Below, in pieces: positions 10,885-59,067 of a stretch of DNA of 64,000 nt. The translations under genes were made by a program, and so were the position numbers. Source of the DNA: Marisediminitalea oceani (GTDB lineage Bacteria > Pseudomonadota > Gammaproteobacteria > Enterobacterales > Alteromonadaceae); the NCBI RefSeq assembly GCF_003731635.1, contig NZ_RCUA01000002.1, positions 1 through 64,000 on the forward strand. The letters run 5' to 3'. The notes beneath the pieces are model-generated. The model had not been told where the DNA came from and did no database searches. It worked only from the letters and a program-made list of their open reading frames with translations. Position 1 is the first letter of the stretch. Every line of letters starts with the position of its first letter.

Positions 10885-13800
10885 CTAGCTTTCTTCAATG
10901 AATTGTTCAAATTGCGCTATCAGTGCTGGCAACTGCCTGACAATACGCTCATAAACCGATTGCATTTCTGCTTTTTTAGCGGTTTTCGCCTGATATTCCA
11001 GCTCAGTCAGCATTTCTTTAAGCGCGTTAGCGCCTACATCAGCAGCGTTGCCTTTAAACGCATGGGCCGTGAAGCGCACTTTTTCCCTGTCTTCAGCGGC
11101 AATTGCCTGCGCGAGTGTTTGTCGTTTTTCATGACTTTCATTAATAAACAGTGACAACAGTTTTTTGAGCAGCGCCTTGTTGTTGTCCAGACGCACCAGC
11201 GCTTCCTCACATTGCCAGATAGCTTGCGTTGGTTCTTCATGGGTTTGATTCGGTACTCTATCCACCTTAGCTAAGCTCAGGCTGTCAGTAACTTTTTCGA
11301 TGAACTCACCGGCATCAATGGGTTTGGTCAGGTAATTATTCATGCCAGCGTCATAGCATTTTTCGCTCTCGCCTTTCAGGGCGTTAGCCGTCATCGCAAT
11401 AATCTGAATATCTCGGTGTACTTCGCCAGCTTGTCCGCCCCGAATCGCTCGGGTGGCATCGTAACCATTGAGCACCGGCATATTACAATCCATTAAAACC
11501 AGATTGATATCCGGGTTATTGCTTAATTGTTCAATTGCATCCGCACCGTTAACGGCGCTGAACACCGTTGGCCCGTAAGGTTCGAGAATAAACTCAGCCA
11601 CCTGACGGTTAATCTCGTTGTCATCGACAATTAAAATATGCTGCGCACTAATATCCACCGCAGCCATGGAATAGTCAGTACGCACGTCTGAACTGCGCCG
11701 GCTGTCGGAAGTTTGAACCAATAACGACGTCTGTTTCGCTCTGCTATCAATTACATTAGAAAGGAAAACAGACCGATACAGTGGCTGCACCATTACAGTT
11801 GCCTGCGGTAAACTGTGATCGGCATCCGATGCACTTTTAGCGATTACGAACAGTGATGGAAGGGATTGTTGTTCTGCCACCCATTGCTGCCAGTAATGGG
11901 TAAAAGCACCATAATAACTGCTGTTTTGTTCAACAAACAGATAAGTACAAGACTGAACTTCGTTCAGGGATAGCATACGGTGGTACACCATCGGCTCTGC
12001 ACCGTTACACACTAATAAATGTTGCAACACACCTTCCAGTGGTTCACTCTCTATCAATAATCCTGCGTTACAGTCGGCCAGCCGCGGCTCTTCTTCTTCC
12101 CTGACCTGCCACAGATCCAGCGGCACTTTTATGGTAAATGTCGACCCCGCCTGCTCTTCCGATTCGACTGAAATGGAACCGTTGAGCAACGACAGGATTT
12201 CCCGGCAGATCGACAATCCCAGGCCGGTGCCACCATAACTGGCAGCAATAGTCTCATCGGCCTGACTGAAGGCCGTGAACAGCTTGCCCTGTTGTGCAGG
12301 TGGTATCCCTTTACCTGTATCAGTTATTTCAATTATCAGGCTGGCATTATTATGCTCAACCACACTTCGTGAAGTCAGCAACACGTAGCCTTCACTGGTG
12401 AATTTAATCGCATTATTGAGTACGTTATTAACAACCTGAGTAAGCCGGTGCGGATCGCTGTGTACCAATGTAAAATTTAACTCACTGGTATCAATGTAAA
12501 AACCTAGCCCTTTCTGGCTCGCGACTACCGACATGGTACTGGTGATACCCTCAATCAGTGCTTCCGGGTTAAAATTTTGAAAATCCAGCTCCAGTTTTCC
12601 GGCCTCAATCTTAGACAGATCCAGAATGTCGTTGATCAGGTGCTTAAGATTATCCACGCTGCCTTCGGCCATAGTCAGCAGTTGTGACTGCTTGGCAGTG
12701 AGAGCCTCGCCACGAAGGAGTGTTGTGGCACCAACTATCCCGTTAAGTGGCGTACGCATTTCATGACTGATGGTAGAAATAAAGTTTGTTTTAAGCTGGC
12801 TCAGTTCCAACGCCTCGTCCCGGGCTTTTTTAAGCTCTTCCGTACGCTGCTCCACCTGCTCCTCTAACTGACGGTTGGTCTCAGCCACATTTATCAGGCT
12901 TTCTTTTTCTACCGTAATGTCACGGATAACAATCGCATAAGCAGCCTCTGCCTGCGAATTATCAATTTTATTCACTTTGCAGTGATACCACTTGCTGATA
13001 CCCCCGTTGCCCTGACGATGCCATTCCGCACCGTTCACCCCGGTTCCCAGGTGTAACTCTAGCGATTCTGCCACCTCTTCACCACCTAAGTGCCGTAGCA
13101 AGTCGGTAAATTTCTGTTCTCTGACCTGTTGCTCCTCGAGTAAAAACATGCGCTCAAAAGACTGGTTAAATGTATTAATGCGCCAGTTGTTACTAACCGT
13201 AATAACGGCGTCCTCAGCCACATCCACGGCCGCCTTCGCCTCCTCGGCAGCCACGAGCAATTTGCTTAAACGCTGGTTATTGCTGCCCAGGTACTGCAGG
13301 GCAAACACGGCGAACACCAGCACGGCACCGAGCCCGGCCATTGACTCCAGTCGTCGGCTAGTCAACTGGCTAAGGTAGTAATCATCGTTTACCAGCAAAT
13401 AAACATGCAGCAGACCTGTTTCACCCGCTGCAACGAAAATGTCCTTACTGGCTCCCAAAGCAGAGGCCCCTGCTCCCGGGCTGGCAAAGCGCTTTAAGCC
13501 ACCTATTTCTGCTGGGTTAACCCTATACTCACTACTAAATGTGCGATCTGGCGCAAGGTCCCGAGTGAATGCCAGTTCAGCCTGAGGGTGTTTGACAAAG
13601 TATTGCTCATAATCAGTTAGCACGACATCCAAATGCTCTCCAATCAGCAGATCCAGTTCATCAAGTAATTCAGACACATCGATATTGGCAATCAGCACAC
13701 CAAAAAACTCACCGTCAGAGAAAATAGGCAGCGCCAGGCGTAAAGTGGGTTGATGAGGGAAGGCGATTCGACCATATTCCCGGTTTAAATCGATATTCGA

Positions 13801-52557: not shown

Positions 52558-53469
52558 ATGTTAAAAGCAACCCTTGAACAGTGGCGCATGTTTAAGGCTG
52601 TCGTGGAAGCCGGCGGTTTTAATCAGGCCGCTGAGCAGGTCCATAAAAGTCAGTCCAGCATCCACCATGCGGTGCAGAAACTCGAACACGCCCTGGACCT
52701 TACCCTGTTTCTCAATGAGGGCCGTCGCGTTACCCTGACCGAAGCCGGCGAGCTGATGTACCGCCGGGCCTGTTTCCTGCTGGAAGAAGCTCACAAAGTC
52801 GAAAGTGTGGCCAGCAGCCTTACGTCGGGAATTGAAACCTATTTACGTGTGGCGGCGGACATTATTTTTCCGCCACAAATGCTTTACCACGCACTCAATA
52901 AAGTTTCCCAGGAGTACCCGTTACTGCGTATTGAACTGATGGAAACGGTGTTAAACGGCGCCAACACCTTACTTAAGGATGGCGATGTGGATATCGGTAT
53001 TTCACCTTTCCCCTACCCCAACGGCTTCAGTGAGGATCTTTGCGATATTGAGTTTATTGCCGTTGCCCATCCCAGCCACCCATTGCACGAATTAAACCGC
53101 ACGCTGACCCTGGATGATCTAAAAAGTTATCGCCAGATTGTGGTGCGCGATTCCTCCACGGAACGTAAAGCTGAGTCCGGCTGGCTCGGTGCAGAACAGC
53201 GCTGGACTGTGAGTCATGTTCGCACTTCTATCGACATAATCAGTCAGGGGTTAGGCTTCGCCTGGTTACCCCTTGCAATTATCAGCGATAAACTTGAAGA
53301 TGGCACCTTAAAGCCCCTACCCATGGAGCAAGGCGGATTACGTAAAGCAATGCTGCATCTGTGTTTTGCCGACGGCGATCGCCTTGGTCCGGCTGCCCGG
53401 GCTTTCATTGGTGAGTTACGCTATCAAACCATGCTGTTGCCCAGCGCCGACTCACTGGATAACAACTAA
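52558..53469 (+). CDS. LysR-family transcriptional regulator
   Basis: A 303-aa LTTR with HTH LEQWRMFKAVVEAGGFNQAAEQVHKSQSSIHHAVQKLE, then LFLNEGRRVTLTEAGELMYRR, and a PBP2-type effector domain. It begins 74 bases after the rhodanese gene but has a weak ribosome site, so the two may or may not be linked. QSSIHHAVQKLE places it with a poorly studied branch common in Alteromonadales. Target unknown. Confidence 0.85.
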   Translation: MLKATLEQWRMFKAVVEAGGFNQAAEQVHKSQSSIHHAVQKLEHALDLTLFLNEGRRVTLTEAGELMYRRACFLLEEAHKVESVASSLTSGIETYLRVAADIIFPPQMLYHALNKVSQEYPLLRIELMETVLNGANTLLKDGDVDIGISPFPYPNGFSEDLCDIEFIAVAHPSHPLHELNRTLTLDDLKSYRQIVVRDSSTERKAESGWLGAEQRWTVSHVRTSIDIISQGLGFAWLPLAIISDKLEDGTLKPLPMEQGGLRKAMLHLCFADGDRLGPAARAFIGELRYQTMLLPSADSLDNN

Positions 53470-53561: not shown

Positions 53562-54896
53562 ATGTTAACCGTACTTTTAGTGGATGATGACGCGGAGTTT
53601 TCCGACGTCGCCTGTACAATCATCGAATTTCTTGGTCATGAAGTATTAACCGCGTCTACCCTCGCCGAAGCTCGCGAGTGGCTCTCTAAAGAAACCTTTG
53701 ACCATATCCTGTTAGATTTCATGTTACCTGATGGTTCAGGACTGCACCTGATGGAATCGTTGCAGCCCGAGCAGAACACCCGGGTAACCCTCATCACCGG
53801 TCACCCCTCGGTAAAAGGAATTATCAAGGACATGTGCGGTCCGAATATCGATTATCTGGTGAAGCCCATTCAACGGGAAGATTTAGAGTCGGTACTCCAG
53901 GGCAAAAAGCAACCTGCCAGTAAACGTTCAACCACCGCCATTACCAAACATTTCGGCCAGCTTATTGGTGAATCAGCCCCGATGCAGGAGCTATATAAGC
54001 TGATAGGCCGGGTCAGTAAAACCAAAGCCAATGTGATGCTGCTTGGCGAAAGTGGTGTGGGTAAGGAAGTGGTTGCTGCCGCGATTCACGAAGCGTCTGA
54101 TTGTGAAGGTACTTATGTAGCCACCAACTGCGGCGCGTTCTCAAAAGAACTTATCGGCAGTGAGTTATTCGGCCACGAAAAAGGCGCGTTTACCGGTGCT
54201 GTAGGCCGCAAGGAAGGCGTCTTTGAACAAGCAGAAAACGGCACACTTTTCCTCGACGAAATTACCGAGATGCCTATCGACATGCAGCCCAACCTGTTAC
54301 GGGTTCTGGAAAACAAAGTCGTGATCCGGGTAGGCGGCACCAAGGCGATGCCGGTAAACTGCCGGGTAGTTTCGGCCACCAACCGCAGCATGGAAGAAAT
54401 CGCCGAAAGCAAGGTATTGCGTGAAGACATTTATTTTCGTCTGGCCGTATTCCCTATCACGATCCCGCCGCTACGGGAACGGAAGGAAGACATTCCGCTT
54501 CTGGCTGAACACTTTATTAACCAGCTCAACGAAGAAAATGGCAGTCAGTTTCGCTGGCAGCCTGTACAGCTGGAAAAACTGCAAACCTACGACTGGCCTG
54601 GTAACGTTCGCGAGCTGCGCCATTTCGTGCACCGCGCTGCCATCATGAGTGACCCGGAAGGTACCGAGATCGAATTACCCAAAACCATTGAGTCACCGTT
54701 TGCCAAAAAGCAAACGCTTTCAACGGGCCTGAAGGCGGGCAGAACCATTGAAGAGGTCGAAAAAGAGTTAATTTACGCGACCTTAGAAAAAGTAGATGGC
54801 AATAAAACCACTGCAGCGGAAATGCTTGGGATCAGCACCAAAACCCTGTATAACCGATTACATGCCTATGGCGACCTTAACAGTGATTCGGAATAA
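53562..54896 (+). CDS. NtrC-type sigma-54-dependent response regulator
   Basis: A 444-aa activator. Receiver at about 1-115 (VDDDAEF, phospho-acceptor Asp in LLDFMLPDG about 51, Lys in LVKPIQ). AAA+ domain with Walker A GESGVGKE (about 163), the sigma-54 contact loop GAFTGA (about 208), Walker B GTLFLDEITE and R-finger region RVLEN. A Fis-type HTH ends the protein (KTTAAEMLGISTKTLYNRL). It should activate RpoN promoters once phosphorylated. AAGGAT precedes the ATG. It is the first gene of a five-gene run ending at 59067, followed by a sigma-54-like promoter at 59172. Confidence 0.94.
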   Translation: MLTVLLVDDDAEFSDVACTIIEFLGHEVLTASTLAEAREWLSKETFDHILLDFMLPDGSGLHLMESLQPEQNTRVTLITGHPSVKGIIKDMCGPNIDYLVKPIQREDLESVLQGKKQPASKRSTTAITKHFGQLIGESAPMQELYKLIGRVSKTKANVMLLGESGVGKEVVAAAIHEASDCEGTYVATNCGAFSKELIGSELFGHEKGAFTGAVGRKEGVFEQAENGTLFLDEITEMPIDMQPNLLRVLENKVVIRVGGTKAMPVNCRVVSATNRSMEEIAESKVLREDIYFRLAVFPITIPPLRERKEDIPLLAEHFINQLNEENGSQFRWQPVQLEKLQTYDWPGNVRELRHFVHRAAIMSDPEGTEIELPKTIESPFAKKQTLSTGLKAGRTIEEVEKELIYATLEKVDGNKTTAAEMLGISTKTLYNRLHAYGDLNSDSE

Positions 54897-54902
54897 TACA
54901 AT

Positions 54903-55145
54903 ATGGATGAAGGTGAATTTGCACGATTACAAAAGGCGGTGCACGACGCGCGCCGCCCGTTAAATCGAATTACCATGCAGTCGGAGCTGATTAAGCTGGC
55001 CCTTGAAGGTGCTGTACCAAAGGAAAAAGCGCTGACGGCACTGGATAAGATCATTGCCGGTAGTAAAGACTGCAGTGATGGTCTTAGTGAGCTGGTAGCG
55101 CAGTTTTCTCCAGACGCAAACGACGAAGGCAGTCCCACAGAATGA
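54903..55145 (+). CDS. stand-alone DHp (HisKA-like) protein without ATPase domain
   Basis: An 80-aa protein that looks like an isolated dimerisation/histidine-phosphotransfer domain. VHDARRPLNRI resembles the kinase H-box HDxRxPLxxI (His about 14), followed by a first helix, a short turn (EGAVPKEK) and a second helix ALDKIIAGSKDCSDGLSELV matching the second DHp helix. No HATPase or receiver follows; the end is an acidic tail. It sits six bases after the sigma-54 activator gene and overlaps the CHASE3 kinase by four bases. It could act like Spo0B or an HPt, or as a decoy dimer partner of the kinase. Family call by eye only. Confidence 0.6.
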   Translation: MDEGEFARLQKAVHDARRPLNRITMQSELIKLALEGAVPKEKALTALDKIIAGSKDCSDGLSELVAQFSPDANDEGSPTE

Positions 55146-56656
55146 AGACCATTATCCGCAATACAGCTTCGTCGATATTGTTGGTTACCCTGGTTATCAT
55201 AGTTATTGCCGCTAATTCCACTTACACCATCCACACCATGGATGAGCTGGCCTCGCTTGAGCGGCGGTTATTTACCACCAACCAGGTGATTAACTCTATT
55301 AATACCCTCCACCTTGCCGTACTCAGAACCGAGTCCGGCCAGCGCGGCTACTTACTCGCCGAACGGGAACGTTATTTAGTTGACTACGAAAAAACACTTA
55401 ATAAGGTCAACAACATTATTGAGCAGGTAGAAGCCAACGCAATTCGTTCAGACTTTACCGAACAGGAAGTGCGGCTGCAGCAATTGGTAGATCTATCAAA
55501 AGCCAAGCTGTCAGAGCTTATTGAAACGGTCGAACTGGCACGTCAGGGCCGCAAGGACGAAGCCATTACTATTTTTCAGTCTGACGTTGGACTGGAACTC
55601 TATAACGAGTTTGAAGAGGTGTTTGTCCAGATTGCCGAAGAAGAATACAAAGTACAGGCACAGCACATTGATTCGCTACTTAAACTGCGATCAGACTCAG
55701 TCACTAACCTGATTATCTCCTCACTGACCACCGGCCTGCTGGTGATCAGTATTTTCATGTTACTACGTATGAACATCCGCGGAACCATCCGCCACAGACG
55801 GGAATTGCAGCAACATAACCTGGTGCTGGAATCACGGGTAAAAGAACGTACCGTGGAGTTACAGGTTTACGCGGAAGAGCTGTCTCGCAGCAATCGTGAA
55901 CTGGAAGATTTTGCCTTTGTCGCCTCCCACGATCTACAGGAACCTTTACGAAAGATACGCGCCTTTGGCAATCGCATCAGCACCGGCTACGAAGATGCAC
56001 TGGATGAGCGTGGTCAGGACTTCCTGCGCCGCATGCTCAATGCCGCCGAGCGTATGTCTATGCTGATCAGTGATTTATTGTCATTCTCCCGGGTAACTAC
56101 CCGCGGTAAGGACTTTGAAGATACCGATTTAAATACCGTCGTTGCCTCGGTATTGGAAGATCTCGAAATCACCATCGAAGAAAAGCAGGCAGAAATTCAC
56201 ACCGATTCATTACCGGTGATGAAAGCCGATGCCTCACAAATGAGTCAGCTGTTTTTAAATTTGTTGTCTAATGCACTGAAATTTACCAAGCCAGACCAGC
56301 CACCGATTATTACTTTACGCTATGAGGCTATCGATGAGGAGCAGGCAGAAGCCCTTCATCTGTTACCAGGCCTGAGCTGGTTTAAACTAACCTTACAGGA
56401 CAATGGTATAGGCTTTGAACAGAGCTTTGCCGAAAAAATATTTGCCCCGTTCCAACGCTTACACGGGCGCTCAGAGTATAAAGGTACCGGTATCGGCTTA
56501 GCGGTTTGCCGCCGCATTATCGAACGTCATAACGGCACCATCGAAGCCTTTAGTGAGCCCGGCCAGGGAGCCAGGTTCGAATTGTACCTGCCCGAAGACG
56601 GCCAGCCGTTTACCAACTTGCAACAACAGGGAGTGATAAGTCATGCCGAACAGTAG
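55142..56656 (+). CDS. CHASE3-domain sensor histidine kinase
   Basis: A 504-aa inner-membrane kinase. TM1 lies near 10-28. A CHASE3 periplasmic domain (about 35-190) has TESGQRGYLLAERERYL. TM2 lies near 193-213, then a coiled coil. HisKA has FVASHDLQEPLRKI (His about 261) and HATPase_c has LLSNALKFT, DNGIGFEQ and GTGIGLAVCRRI. The EDFAFVASHDLQEPL type is phytochrome-related and usually pairs with Rcp1-like receivers, one of which is encoded next (overlap 14 bases). It is the likely sensor of the operon. The signal is unknown. Confidence 0.92.
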   Translation: MKTIIRNTASSILLVTLVIIVIAANSTYTIHTMDELASLERRLFTTNQVINSINTLHLAVLRTESGQRGYLLAERERYLVDYEKTLNKVNNIIEQVEANAIRSDFTEQEVRLQQLVDLSKAKLSELIETVELARQGRKDEAITIFQSDVGLELYNEFEEVFVQIAEEEYKVQAQHIDSLLKLRSDSVTNLIISSLTTGLLVISIFMLLRMNIRGTIRHRRELQQHNLVLESRVKERTVELQVYAEELSRSNRELEDFAFVASHDLQEPLRKIRAFGNRISTGYEDALDERGQDFLRRMLNAAERMSMLISDLLSFSRVTTRGKDFEDTDLNTVVASVLEDLEITIEEKQAEIHTDSLPVMKADASQMSQLFLNLLSNALKFTKPDQPPIITLRYEAIDEEQAEALHLLPGLSWFKLTLQDNGIGFEQSFAEKIFAPFQRLHGRSEYKGTGIGLAVCRRIIERHNGTIEAFSEPGQGARFELYLPEDGQPFTNLQQQGVISHAEQ

Positions 56657-57095
56657 CTTACCCGTTACCATATTAATGGCCGATGACGACGAGGACGACA
56701 GATTACTGGCGCTCGACGCGTTAAAAGAAGGCCGGGTGCTTAACAATTTACACTGCGTAGAAGATGGCGTTGAACTGCTGGAGTATCTGCGTCGGGAGGG
56801 TAAATTTGCCGATCCTGCCACTTCGCCCCGCCCGAGTTTAATTTTGTTGGATTTGAACATGCCGCGCATGGATGGCCGGGAAGCCTTGCAGCACATCAAG
56901 GCCGACCCAAACTTACGCAGCATTCCGGTGGTTATCCTGACGACTTCGAAAGAAGAAGAAGACATGATCCGCGGTTACGACCTCGGCGCAGCCTCTTACA
57001 TTACTAAACCGGTTAACTTTGAGGGACTGGTGGATCTGATGCGCGCTATCGGTCGCTACTGGATAGAATTTGTTGAACTCCCTCACAATAAATAG
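56643..57095 (+). CDS. Rcp1-like single-domain response regulator
   Basis: A 150-aa receiver: ADDDEDDR acidic pocket, phospho-acceptor Asp in ILLDLNMPRMDG (about 64), Thr in VVILTTSKEE and Lys in YITKPV. The LLDLNMPRMDGRE pattern and the length are those of Rcp1-type partners of phytochrome-like kinases. No output domain. GGAG precedes the ATG inside the kinase gene. It probably relays phosphate or titrates it between the kinases of the operon. Confidence 0.93.
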   Translation: MPNSSLPVTILMADDDEDDRLLALDALKEGRVLNNLHCVEDGVELLEYLRREGKFADPATSPRPSLILLDLNMPRMDGREALQHIKADPNLRSIPVVILTTSKEEEDMIRGYDLGAASYITKPVNFEGLVDLMRAIGRYWIEFVELPHNK

Positions 57096-57108: not shown

Positions 57109-59067
57109 ATGACTGACCATGTTCGCATACTGCTGGTTGAAGATGACGAAGACGATTATTTTCTGACCGCCGACTCACTCTCGCAGTGCAAGTCGCCGGT
57201 GTTCGAGCTGGTATGGGCCAAAACGGGTGAAGAAGCCATTGAACATCTGCAAACAGATACCTTCGATTTGTGCCTGCTCGATTATCTGTTGGGTCAGGAA
57301 AATGCCATGGACGTGCTGGAAAAGCTTAAAAGTCTGTCGGTAACCATTCCTGTAGTGGTCCTCACAGGCCAGGCAGACAGTATCGTTGATGACAGGGTAA
57401 TGCGCGCCGGTGCCGAGGACTTTTTAACCAAAGCCGAAGTCGATACGCCACGCTTTATGCGGACTATCCGCTATGCACTGGTACGCCGCGAAATTGAAAC
57501 TGAACGATTAGAACGTAATCGCATCGAGCAGCAAAACAAAGCCAAGGATAAATTCCTCGCCCATCTTGGCCATGAACTCAGAACCCCACTGGCCTCTATT
57601 CTCGGTTATACCGAGCTGTTGCTCGACAGCCCTGGTAACGAGCGAATTAACGCTGAACTCTCAACCATCTTTAATAACAGCAAACATTTGCTTAGCCTGC
57701 TCAACGACTTACTGGATATGTCGCGGATCATGGCCAACAAGTTAGAGCTGGTGCCACAAACGCTTAATCTGAACGGCTTTTTAACCGATCTTTATAGCCT
57801 GATGGTTGTGCACGCCAGTGAGAAAGGCCTGGTTTTAACAGTTAGCGCCAATTCGTTAATCCCCGAATATATCAAAGTAGACCCTACCCGACTGCGGCAA
57901 ATCCTGATCAATCTTGTTAATAACGCAATTAAATTTACCGACAATGGTGAAGTGGCAATCAATGTTGAATTCGATAAAGACGGCGAGCGGATTTGCTTTG
58001 CGGTAAAAGATACCGGTATTGGCATGCCGGCAGACAAGCTTGAAACCATTTTTAAGCCCTTCGAGCAAATTGAGGATCTTATCCACGCCAACCATGGTGG
58101 TGCCGGCCTCGGGCTGGCCATTTCCAATGAGTTAGTCAGCCGTATGGGTGGCCGTATCAGAGTAGAGTCCACCCAGGGCGAAGGCAGTCGCTTTTGGTTT
58201 TGTATCAATGCCGAAGGCAGCACTGAACAGAATCTTATTCGCTTGAATCTGGAGGCACCTGAGCGTCTTCCAGTCCAATTTAAAATAAATCAACACCTTG
58301 ATGGCCGGGTGCTGATTGTTGATGACTTACGTGAAATTCGCCGTCTCACCGGCCGTTTAGTTAGCATGAGCCAGGCACAGGTAAGCTACGCCCAGAATGG
58401 CGCCGACGCATTGGAAAAAATACGCAGCGCAGAGCATAGCGGTGAACCTTTCCACCTGGTACTGATGGATATACATATGCCGGTGATGAATGGCATTGAT
58501 TGTTTAAAGGCTATGCGCTCCTCTGGTATTCAAACGCCGGTAGTAGCCGTTACGGCAGCCAGTCGTAAAGGGCTTAGAGAATCCTTACTGGCCGAGGGTT
58601 TTGACAACGTAATTGCCAAGCCTATCGACCGTAAAGATTTAAGTGAAGTGCTCAGTACCTTTTTACTGCCAGCCACCCAGCCTGCTGCGCCGAAAGAAAC
58701 CAGCAACGCTGAGCAGAAGTCATCTTTACTGGTAGTAGAAGATGATGAGGACGCGGCCGAGTTAATGTGCCTGCTGCTAAATTCGTTGGGTTACGAGGCA
58801 GATATTGCACTTAATGGCCAACAGGCTCTGGAAAAAGTTGCCAATGCCCCGGCACATTATGTCCATGTGCTTATGGATCTGCATTTGCCCGATACTGACG
58901 GCTATGAACTGACCGCTGCCATCGCTGAAGTCGCCCCTGGCCTGAACGTGACCATTATCAGCGGCGCTGAGCCAGATAAAGGCCGACTCGAGGGTTTACC
59001 CATCGCGCAGGTGTTACTCAAGCCCGTGAGTAAAGCTGATCTGGCCGTACTGAACTTTTGCGGGTAA
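57109..59067 (+). CDS. hybrid histidine kinase (REC-HisKA-HATPase-REC-REC)
   Basis: A 652-aa soluble protein. REC1 (about 5-120; VEDDEDD, LLDYLLGQ), HisKA with AHLGHELRTPLASI (His about 155), HATPase with NNAIKF, DTGIGMP and GGAGLGLAI. REC2 follows (VLIVDDLREIRR, LVLMDIHMPVM, Asp about 451, KPID) and then REC3 (LVVEDDEDAAE, VLMDLHLPDTDG, Asp about 589, LKPVSK). No TM helix or HPt is present, so input is likely through REC1 from another kinase. It is the last gene of the signalling operon. With three receivers and one kinase core it could integrate several signals. Confidence 0.92.
   Translation: MTDHVRILLVEDDEDDYFLTADSLSQCKSPVFELVWAKTGEEAIEHLQTDTFDLCLLDYLLGQENAMDVLEKLKSLSVTIPVVVLTGQADSIVDDRVMRAGAEDFLTKAEVDTPRFMRTIRYALVRREIETERLERNRIEQQNKAKDKFLAHLGHELRTPLASILGYTELLLDSPGNERINAELSTIFNNSKHLLSLLNDLLDMSRIMANKLELVPQTLNLNGFLTDLYSLMVVHASEKGLVLTVSANSLIPEYIKVDPTRLRQILINLVNNAIKFTDNGEVAINVEFDKDGERICFAVKDTGIGMPADKLETIFKPFEQIEDLIHANHGGAGLGLAISNELVSRMGGRIRVESTQGEGSRFWFCINAEGSTEQNLIRLNLEAPERLPVQFKINQHLDGRVLIVDDLREIRRLTGRLVSMSQAQVSYAQNGADALEKIRSAEHSGEPFHLVLMDIHMPVMNGIDCLKAMRSSGIQTPVVAVTAASRKGLRESLLAEGFDNVIAKPIDRKDLSEVLSTFLLPATQPAAPKETSNAEQKSSLLVVEDDEDAAELMCLLLNSLGYEADIALNGQQALEKVANAPAHYVHVLMDLHLPDTDGYELTAAIAEVAPGLNVTIISGAEPDKGRLEGLPIAQVLLKPVSKADLAVLNFCG

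Follow-up and report, generated by a model that had tools for sequence, protein, structure and literature searches.

Introduction

A hybrid histidine kinase ends on an aspartate, and a histidine carrier is needed for phosphate to travel from there to an output regulator. HPt domains belong to another fold family than HisKA/DHp. Spo0B, ChpT, and PhyT are phosphotransferases derived from histidine kinases (HK), and are described as degenerate kinases in the sections of the literature consulted here (PMC5898713, PMC9981736). In the last of these systems, phosphate transfer is described from the single receiver SdrG to PhyT and from PhyT to PhyR (PMC5898713). ATPase-less HisKA proteins have also been recorded outside this group, both as archaeal REC-PAS/GAF-HisKA proteins without HATPase, which are noted as unstudied experimentally in the available text of their description (PMC5847659), and as HisKA-only proteins, which two genome surveys, in the portions available, treat as incomplete kinases for manual checking (PMC4618731, PMC9953108). 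In the open-licence literature, we found no description of a bacterial DHp that stands alone and is paired with a regulator, which is weak evidence of absence.

The locus examined here lies in the window, by which we mean the entire 64,000-nucleotide stretch of Marisediminitalea oceani DNA that was analyzed, from a genome of 4,987,953 bases in 90 contigs. The initial annotation had read one of its products as a stand-alone DHp protein comparable to Spo0B, and the sequence analyses described below bear out both the reading and the comparison.

Results and Discussion

Layout of the Operon in the Window

The DHp gene (54903–55145, + strand) starts with ATG, stops with TGA, and was delimited by ORF and domain analysis; the CAC codon of its putative phospho-accepting residue, His14, lies at 54942–54944 (+). 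It begins six bases after the end, at 54896, of a gene encoding an NtrC-type response regulator (53562–54896, +; REC, sigma-54 AAA, and Fis HTH by Pfam), and its end is overlapped by four bases by the start, at 55142, of the gene for a CHASE3-HisKA-HATPase kinase (55142–56656, +; Pfam), which confirms the coordinates and neighbors first annotated for this 80-codon frame. Further downstream are genes for a stand-alone REC (56643–57095, +; Pfam, with the phospho-Asp motif in 42/42 orthologues scored), which may be a Spo0F/SdrG-like intermediate, and for a hybrid kinase with three REC domains, arranged as REC-HisKA-HATPase-REC-REC, and no Hpt match (57109–59067, +; Pfam). Among named records, the DHp gene is closest, at 96 percent identity, to Alteromonas alba and to an Alteromonadaceae MAG.

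Both in the window and at five loci from close relatives (L002–L006), the NtrC and DHp ORFs share a frame across an intervening TAA and two codons (54894–54902 in the window). Stop readthrough from NtrC into DHp was nevertheless rejected, since spacing and frame differ in other relatives and the same-frame layout is not conserved. The stand-alone REC is among the best-conserved proteins of the operon, with about 75–89 percent identity in many relatives, in which the kinases show about 39–71 percent, and for a few relatives its identity is lower, at about 50 percent. A LysR-type regulator gene (52558–53469) precedes the operon; such a gene lies within about 5.3 kb upstream of the operon in the Alteromonas relatives read, and most other genera read have no close homologue near the operon. 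Scanning the window for the sigma-54 promoter pattern gave two matches with one mismatch, compared to 7.8 expected by chance, and is uninformative.

A Predicted HisKA-Type Hairpin

Pfam ranks HisKA first for the 80-residue protein, at E = 0.0047 and 17.4 bits, short of the curated 26.9-bit cut-off, and up to E = 5 it lists one further family, CgtA (E = 0.38). Within the same limit, there is no match to Hpt (PF01627), and the Pfam scan detects no HATPase/CA domain, such that the protein does not classify as a sensor histidine kinase. It is also absent from the 49 matches of a genome-wide HisKA scan at E = 0.01, all of which lie in frames of 329 residues or more. HisKA is, in turn, matched at E = 1 or better by all 36 members of our alignment A1 (best value 3.5e-8), and one relative (L083, in G019) reaches 27.9 bits, which is above the curated cut-off. 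The profile search proposed in the initial annotation thus upholds the HisKA assignment for the family, and falls short for the window protein taken alone. The proteins in A1 and in a second alignment, A2, are 63–81 residues long with the starts chosen, and terminate shortly past the hairpin.

That hairpin, which the annotation had also anticipated, is obtained from AlphaFold2, which predicts two helices (residues 3–34 and 40–68, single chain) with a mean pLDDT of 86. When the model was submitted to Foldseek, the first nine rows were each HK853 or an EnvZ-based chain, with E-values of 0.2 or worse. VIA-align placed ChpT-CtrA (4qpj) and HK853 (4jav) at Z = 8.6, amid many unrelated hairpins at 8.4–9.5, and thus fails to tell DHp from unrelated hairpins. 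A search of PDB sequences with the family profile returned BPa0997 at the top (E = 0.02), which we took to be a chance match, and the EnvZ DHp at E = 0.61, with ChpT absent at E = 10. A comparison between the family profile and the DHp from the hybrid kinase encoded in the same operon aligned His to His at E = 8.5e-6 and a probability of 64 percent. Judging from the HisKA matches, the profile comparison, and the predicted fold, the 80-residue protein consists of a HisKA/DHp-like helical hairpin alone, without an ATPase domain.

Conservation, Selection, and Distribution

Conservation was assessed over 55 copies. Of the 55 loci read, L086 yielded none and L070 two, so that 54 loci are represented; the copies are mutually related and hence not independent. 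The His, Arg+3, Asn+7, and Glu+14 are invariant in all 55 aligned copies, Pro+5 is present in 53 and Leu+6 in 54, and the family follows the HisKA H-box pattern of His followed by Arg/Pro/Leu/Asn. Two further points on which the initial annotation had staked its reading, namely retention of the His in homologues and an unbroken frame in close relatives, therefore stand: loci L002–L006 all keep the full-length 80-residue ORF, and the dN/dS of the DHp gene against them is about 0.05–0.13. The DHp gene is under selection and represents a real family.

On the regulator side, the phospho-Asp is present in 53/53 aligned partners. Where residue His+8 is Arg or Lys, the regulator carries Glu12 in 36/36 scored pairs, and where it is another residue, in 6/17; this apparent charge pairing falls at a known DHp/REC contact, tracks phylogeny, and involves a position at which the REC-GGDEF rows are badly aligned, and is only a hint. 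We also note a Cys in helix 2 (in KDCS or QDCS; Cys57, window 55071–55073), counted by eye in 32/36 rows of A1; another Cys often lies three positions before it.

Relatives of the DHp protein occur in 39/147 genomes of the window's family, which we take, from the closest named records, to be Alteromonadaceae. At the order level, profile A1 matches 24/394 genomes, one of them solely in a 1012-residue frame, and profile A2 matches 13/369 class-level and 16/299 phylum-level genomes, with 11 of the 13 and 10 of the 16 in long frames. We took these long-frame matches (312–1450 residues) to be ordinary kinases rather than family members, three of them having a second match on an N-box-like stretch and the rest being assigned from frame length and visual inspection. 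Searching with A3, a set of the divergent members alone, gave 9/192 order genomes, all of which the other searches had already found. Outside the order, the small DHp gene turns up in one genome (G1030), flanked by genes for an NtrC regulator and a CHASE3-type kinase. Alteromonadaceae are thus the centre of the family, which has a few members nearby.

Pairing with the Response Regulator

Every one of the 45 copies counted has a response regulator gene immediately upstream, of NtrC type for 40 and of REC-GGDEF type for 5, with adjacency defined as a distance of −50 to +200 bases between match ends. These 45 were drawn from 46 matches, leaving out one in a 1057-residue frame (G019:C5), and a match in a 422-residue frame (G018:C1) was treated as a kinase. 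The pairing also holds when counted from the regulator: NtrC homologues (E = 1e-120 or better) number 40 copies, in the same 39 of 147 genomes as the DHp, and the DHp lies directly downstream in 40/40, as it does for 5/5 regulators closely related to the REC-GGDEF protein of G058 (the five hits at E = 1e-144 or better, with the next hit at 1e-88). A sixth REC-GGDEF-DHp pair occurs in G264, from another family. In the conservation set, 2/55 copies lack an upstream regulator ORF of at least 250 residues (L004, near a contig end, and L081, with a broken frame), and in both, NtrC sequence is nonetheless adjacent to the DHp.

The CHASE3 kinase is found in 38 of the 39 genomes and directly follows 37/45 copies, while 8/45 have no such kinase directly downstream. 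In G031, the NtrC-DHp pair is on contig C10, before a gene that appears lipoprotein-like by eye and a GGDEF-EAL gene, and a cluster of CHASE3 kinase, REC, and hybrid kinase lies on contig C14 without NtrC or DHp. In G019, the pair is followed by a single CHASE3-HisKA-HATPase-REC-REC kinase, and G009 has a second NtrC-DHp pair that is divergent from genes for a heme oxygenase and a bacteriophytochrome hybrid kinase (L070, 1766–6837), possibly a light-responsive version of the system. Because all 45 copies follow a regulator, and because the kinase is separate or replaced in these three cases, we take the upstream regulator, and not the CHASE3 kinase, to be the constant partner. The gene order that the initial annotation had drawn attention to is thus kept in homologues as far as the regulator-DHp pair is concerned and is less strict for the kinase behind it, and the association that it described with NtrC is real but too narrowly drawn, as some REC-GGDEF regulators have the same companion. 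Divergent DHp genes lie directly behind REC-GGDEF diguanylate cyclase genes at L078 (7555–8812), L069 (6550–7803), and L091 (4667–5920), and in the H-boxes that they encode, position His+1 is Ser or Asn and position His+4 is Asn.

A Proposed Phosphorelay and Its Alternatives

Taking these observations together, we consider it probable, with modest confidence, that the DHp-only protein is a CA-less histidine phosphotransferase of the Spo0B/ChpT/PhyT kind, dedicated to its regulator. The protein would form a homodimeric four-helix bundle, in which His14 would take phosphate from a receiver of the operon, either the stand-alone REC or a REC of the hybrid kinase, and would hand this phosphate on to Asp52 of the NtrC-type activator, whose gene lies immediately upstream. 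The phosphorylated activator would in turn drive sigma-54 transcription, and the operon would constitute a complete Spo0/PhyT-like relay of kinase, REC, DHp, and NtrC. We favour transfer from REC through DHp to regulator because the DHp supplies a conserved His and is genetically tied to a regulator with an intact phospho-Asp.

A Pfam scan found no Hpt in 5/5 hybrid kinases (that of the window, the G019 kinase, the G009 bacteriophytochrome kinase, and two near REC-GGDEF-DHp pairs). The genome does, however, hold 11 Hpt matches elsewhere, and thus an HPt could act in trans. One of the 11, which falls in the window (10903–11160, −), is in a 1140-residue frame that also holds HisKA, that is, a hybrid kinase with its own HPt. 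Of the two roles that the initial annotation had offered for the protein, relay of phosphate to the activator is the better fit, given the 45/45 copies behind a regulator and the five hybrid kinases without Hpt. We tentatively extend this to a broader picture, which may well hold but which we would not yet assume, in which the regulator-DHp pair is a portable module, the DHp being a clip-on histidine that replaces HPt and is fed by whichever hybrid kinase or receiver adjoins it, with outputs ranging from sigma-54 transcription to c-di-GMP synthesis.

Several observations count against the relay reading. A CA-like domain is retained in the known HK-derived phosphotransferases and is absent here, and the acidic residue after the His is missing in six REC-GGDEF-associated copies. 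Furthermore, in a mirror-tree analysis of 38 non-redundant loci, the partial r with DHp was 0.45 for the NtrC REC, 0.49 for the CHASE3 sensor, and 0.00 for the stand-alone REC. As the sensor value matches that of the NtrC REC, and the stand-alone REC shows none, the analysis names no donor; the signal is not specific, and counts against the relay reading insofar as the stand-alone REC is a proposed donor.

The missing signal with the stand-alone REC is compatible with the main rival to the phosphotransferase reading, in which the protein would be a phosphatase or phosphate sink dedicated to its regulator, which the DHp hairpin would bind and strip of phosphate so as to sharpen or reset the response. 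The regulator pairing alone, which is constant whatever kinase adjoins, would fit this equally well. HisKA phosphatases, however, use Thr or Asn at His+4, and this position is not conserved in the family (Lys in 17, Arg in 12, Asn in 10, Gly in 8, Ala in 7, and Ser in 1 of the 55 copies, with no Thr), and its variability therefore speaks against a phosphatase. The published data available to us point both ways, as an HK853 construct without its CA domain is reported to be phosphatase-active at pH 8.0, whereas HisKA phosphatase activity is stimulated by the ATP-binding domain (PMC7005713). On balance, we regard a phosphatase or sink as unlikely, although it deserves to be kept in view.

It is less likely still that the protein is one half of a split kinase, in which the CHASE3 or hybrid kinase would use its ATPase domain to phosphorylate the DHp in trans and the DHp would then phosphorylate NtrC directly. 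Split kinases do exist, as in Hik36/Hik43, although there, in the text available, the histidine lies in an HPt domain (PMC7656254). The residue after the His, where an acid would aid attack on ATP, is Asp in 48, Asn in 5, Glu in 1, and Ser in 1 of the 55 copies, so that the acid is kept in 49/55; it is, however, lost in the six REC-GGDEF-paired copies, and an NtrC-type copy (L032) has Asn here too. The candidate donor kinases, moreover, keep H-boxes of their own, in 46/46 CHASE3 (of SHDxQEP type) and 46/47 hybrid kinase orthologues scored, which argues against a split kinase.

RetS/GacS provides a precedent for tuning a kinase through mixed DHp bundles, and the initial annotation had suggested, as its second option, that the protein forms heterodimers of this kind with the CHASE3 kinase. 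While the four-base overlap and the gene order in the main operon would suit such a role, we consider it very improbable: 8/45 copies are not directly followed by a CHASE3 kinase, and the family profile, which matches the hybrid kinase DHp at 64 percent, gives a probability of only 0.1 percent for the CHASE3 DHp, the same as for a control stretch from an AAA domain. Finally, the short length and sub-threshold HisKA score could suggest a functionless leftover of a decayed kinase, which can safely be dismissed in light of its presence in 39/147 genomes, its invariant residues, and the dN/dS of 0.05–0.13.

Comparison with Known Systems

Should the phosphotransferase reading be true, the protein would be a minimal kinase-derived phosphotransferase of roughly 65–80 residues, linked through gene order to a single regulator. 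Spo0B, ChpT, and PhyT are described as keeping a dead ATPase part, and a DHp-only protein would go further; measured against these three, the sequence offers a DHp with a conserved His and no retained CA-like domain. Such a protein would be a small natural system in which the requirements of a DHp for phosphotransfer and specificity could be probed, and would explain how hybrid kinases that lack an HPt reach their regulators in Alteromonas-related marine bacteria. Relay parts may therefore be overlooked wherever a genome survey classes HisKA-only proteins as incomplete kinases.

Spo0B keeps a CA-like C-terminal domain, and, to our knowledge, its gene is not beside that of its regulator, whereas the window protein is the hairpin alone and its gene is directly behind the regulator's. 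The likeness lies in the proposed role, as Spo0B is described as an HK-derived phosphotransferase that acts as a dimer in the Bacillus sporulation relay, linking a single REC to an output regulator (PMC5898713).

ChpT differs from the window protein in having a degenerate CA domain and in serving two acceptors. Its Pro27 is five residues from its His. A Pro in helix 1 is common to ChpT (Pro27) and the DHp family, and in the CckA-ChpT-CtrA system of Caulobacter and Brucella, as described in the text available, phosphate likewise passes from the REC of a hybrid kinase to a transcription regulator (PMC9981736).

The wiring proposed here, of kinases, a single REC, an HK-derived phosphotransferase, and a regulator, is that of PhyT/SdrG/PhyR in Sphingomonas. 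PhyT (formerly PhyP) is, by contrast, described as predicted to be membrane-anchored, its H-box being HRxxN and its ATPase domain degenerate (PMC5898713). HPt domains (PF01627) would occupy the same place in a hybrid-kinase relay as that proposed for the window protein, which, however, matches HisKA and not Hpt. Lastly, the archaeal REC-PAS/GAF-HisKA proteins without HATPase, such as AF_1472, also combine a receiver with an ATPase-less DHp, but they do so in a single fused archaeal protein, as far as the available description goes (PMC5847659), whereas here the two parts are encoded by two genes and the output is through sigma-54 or GGDEF.
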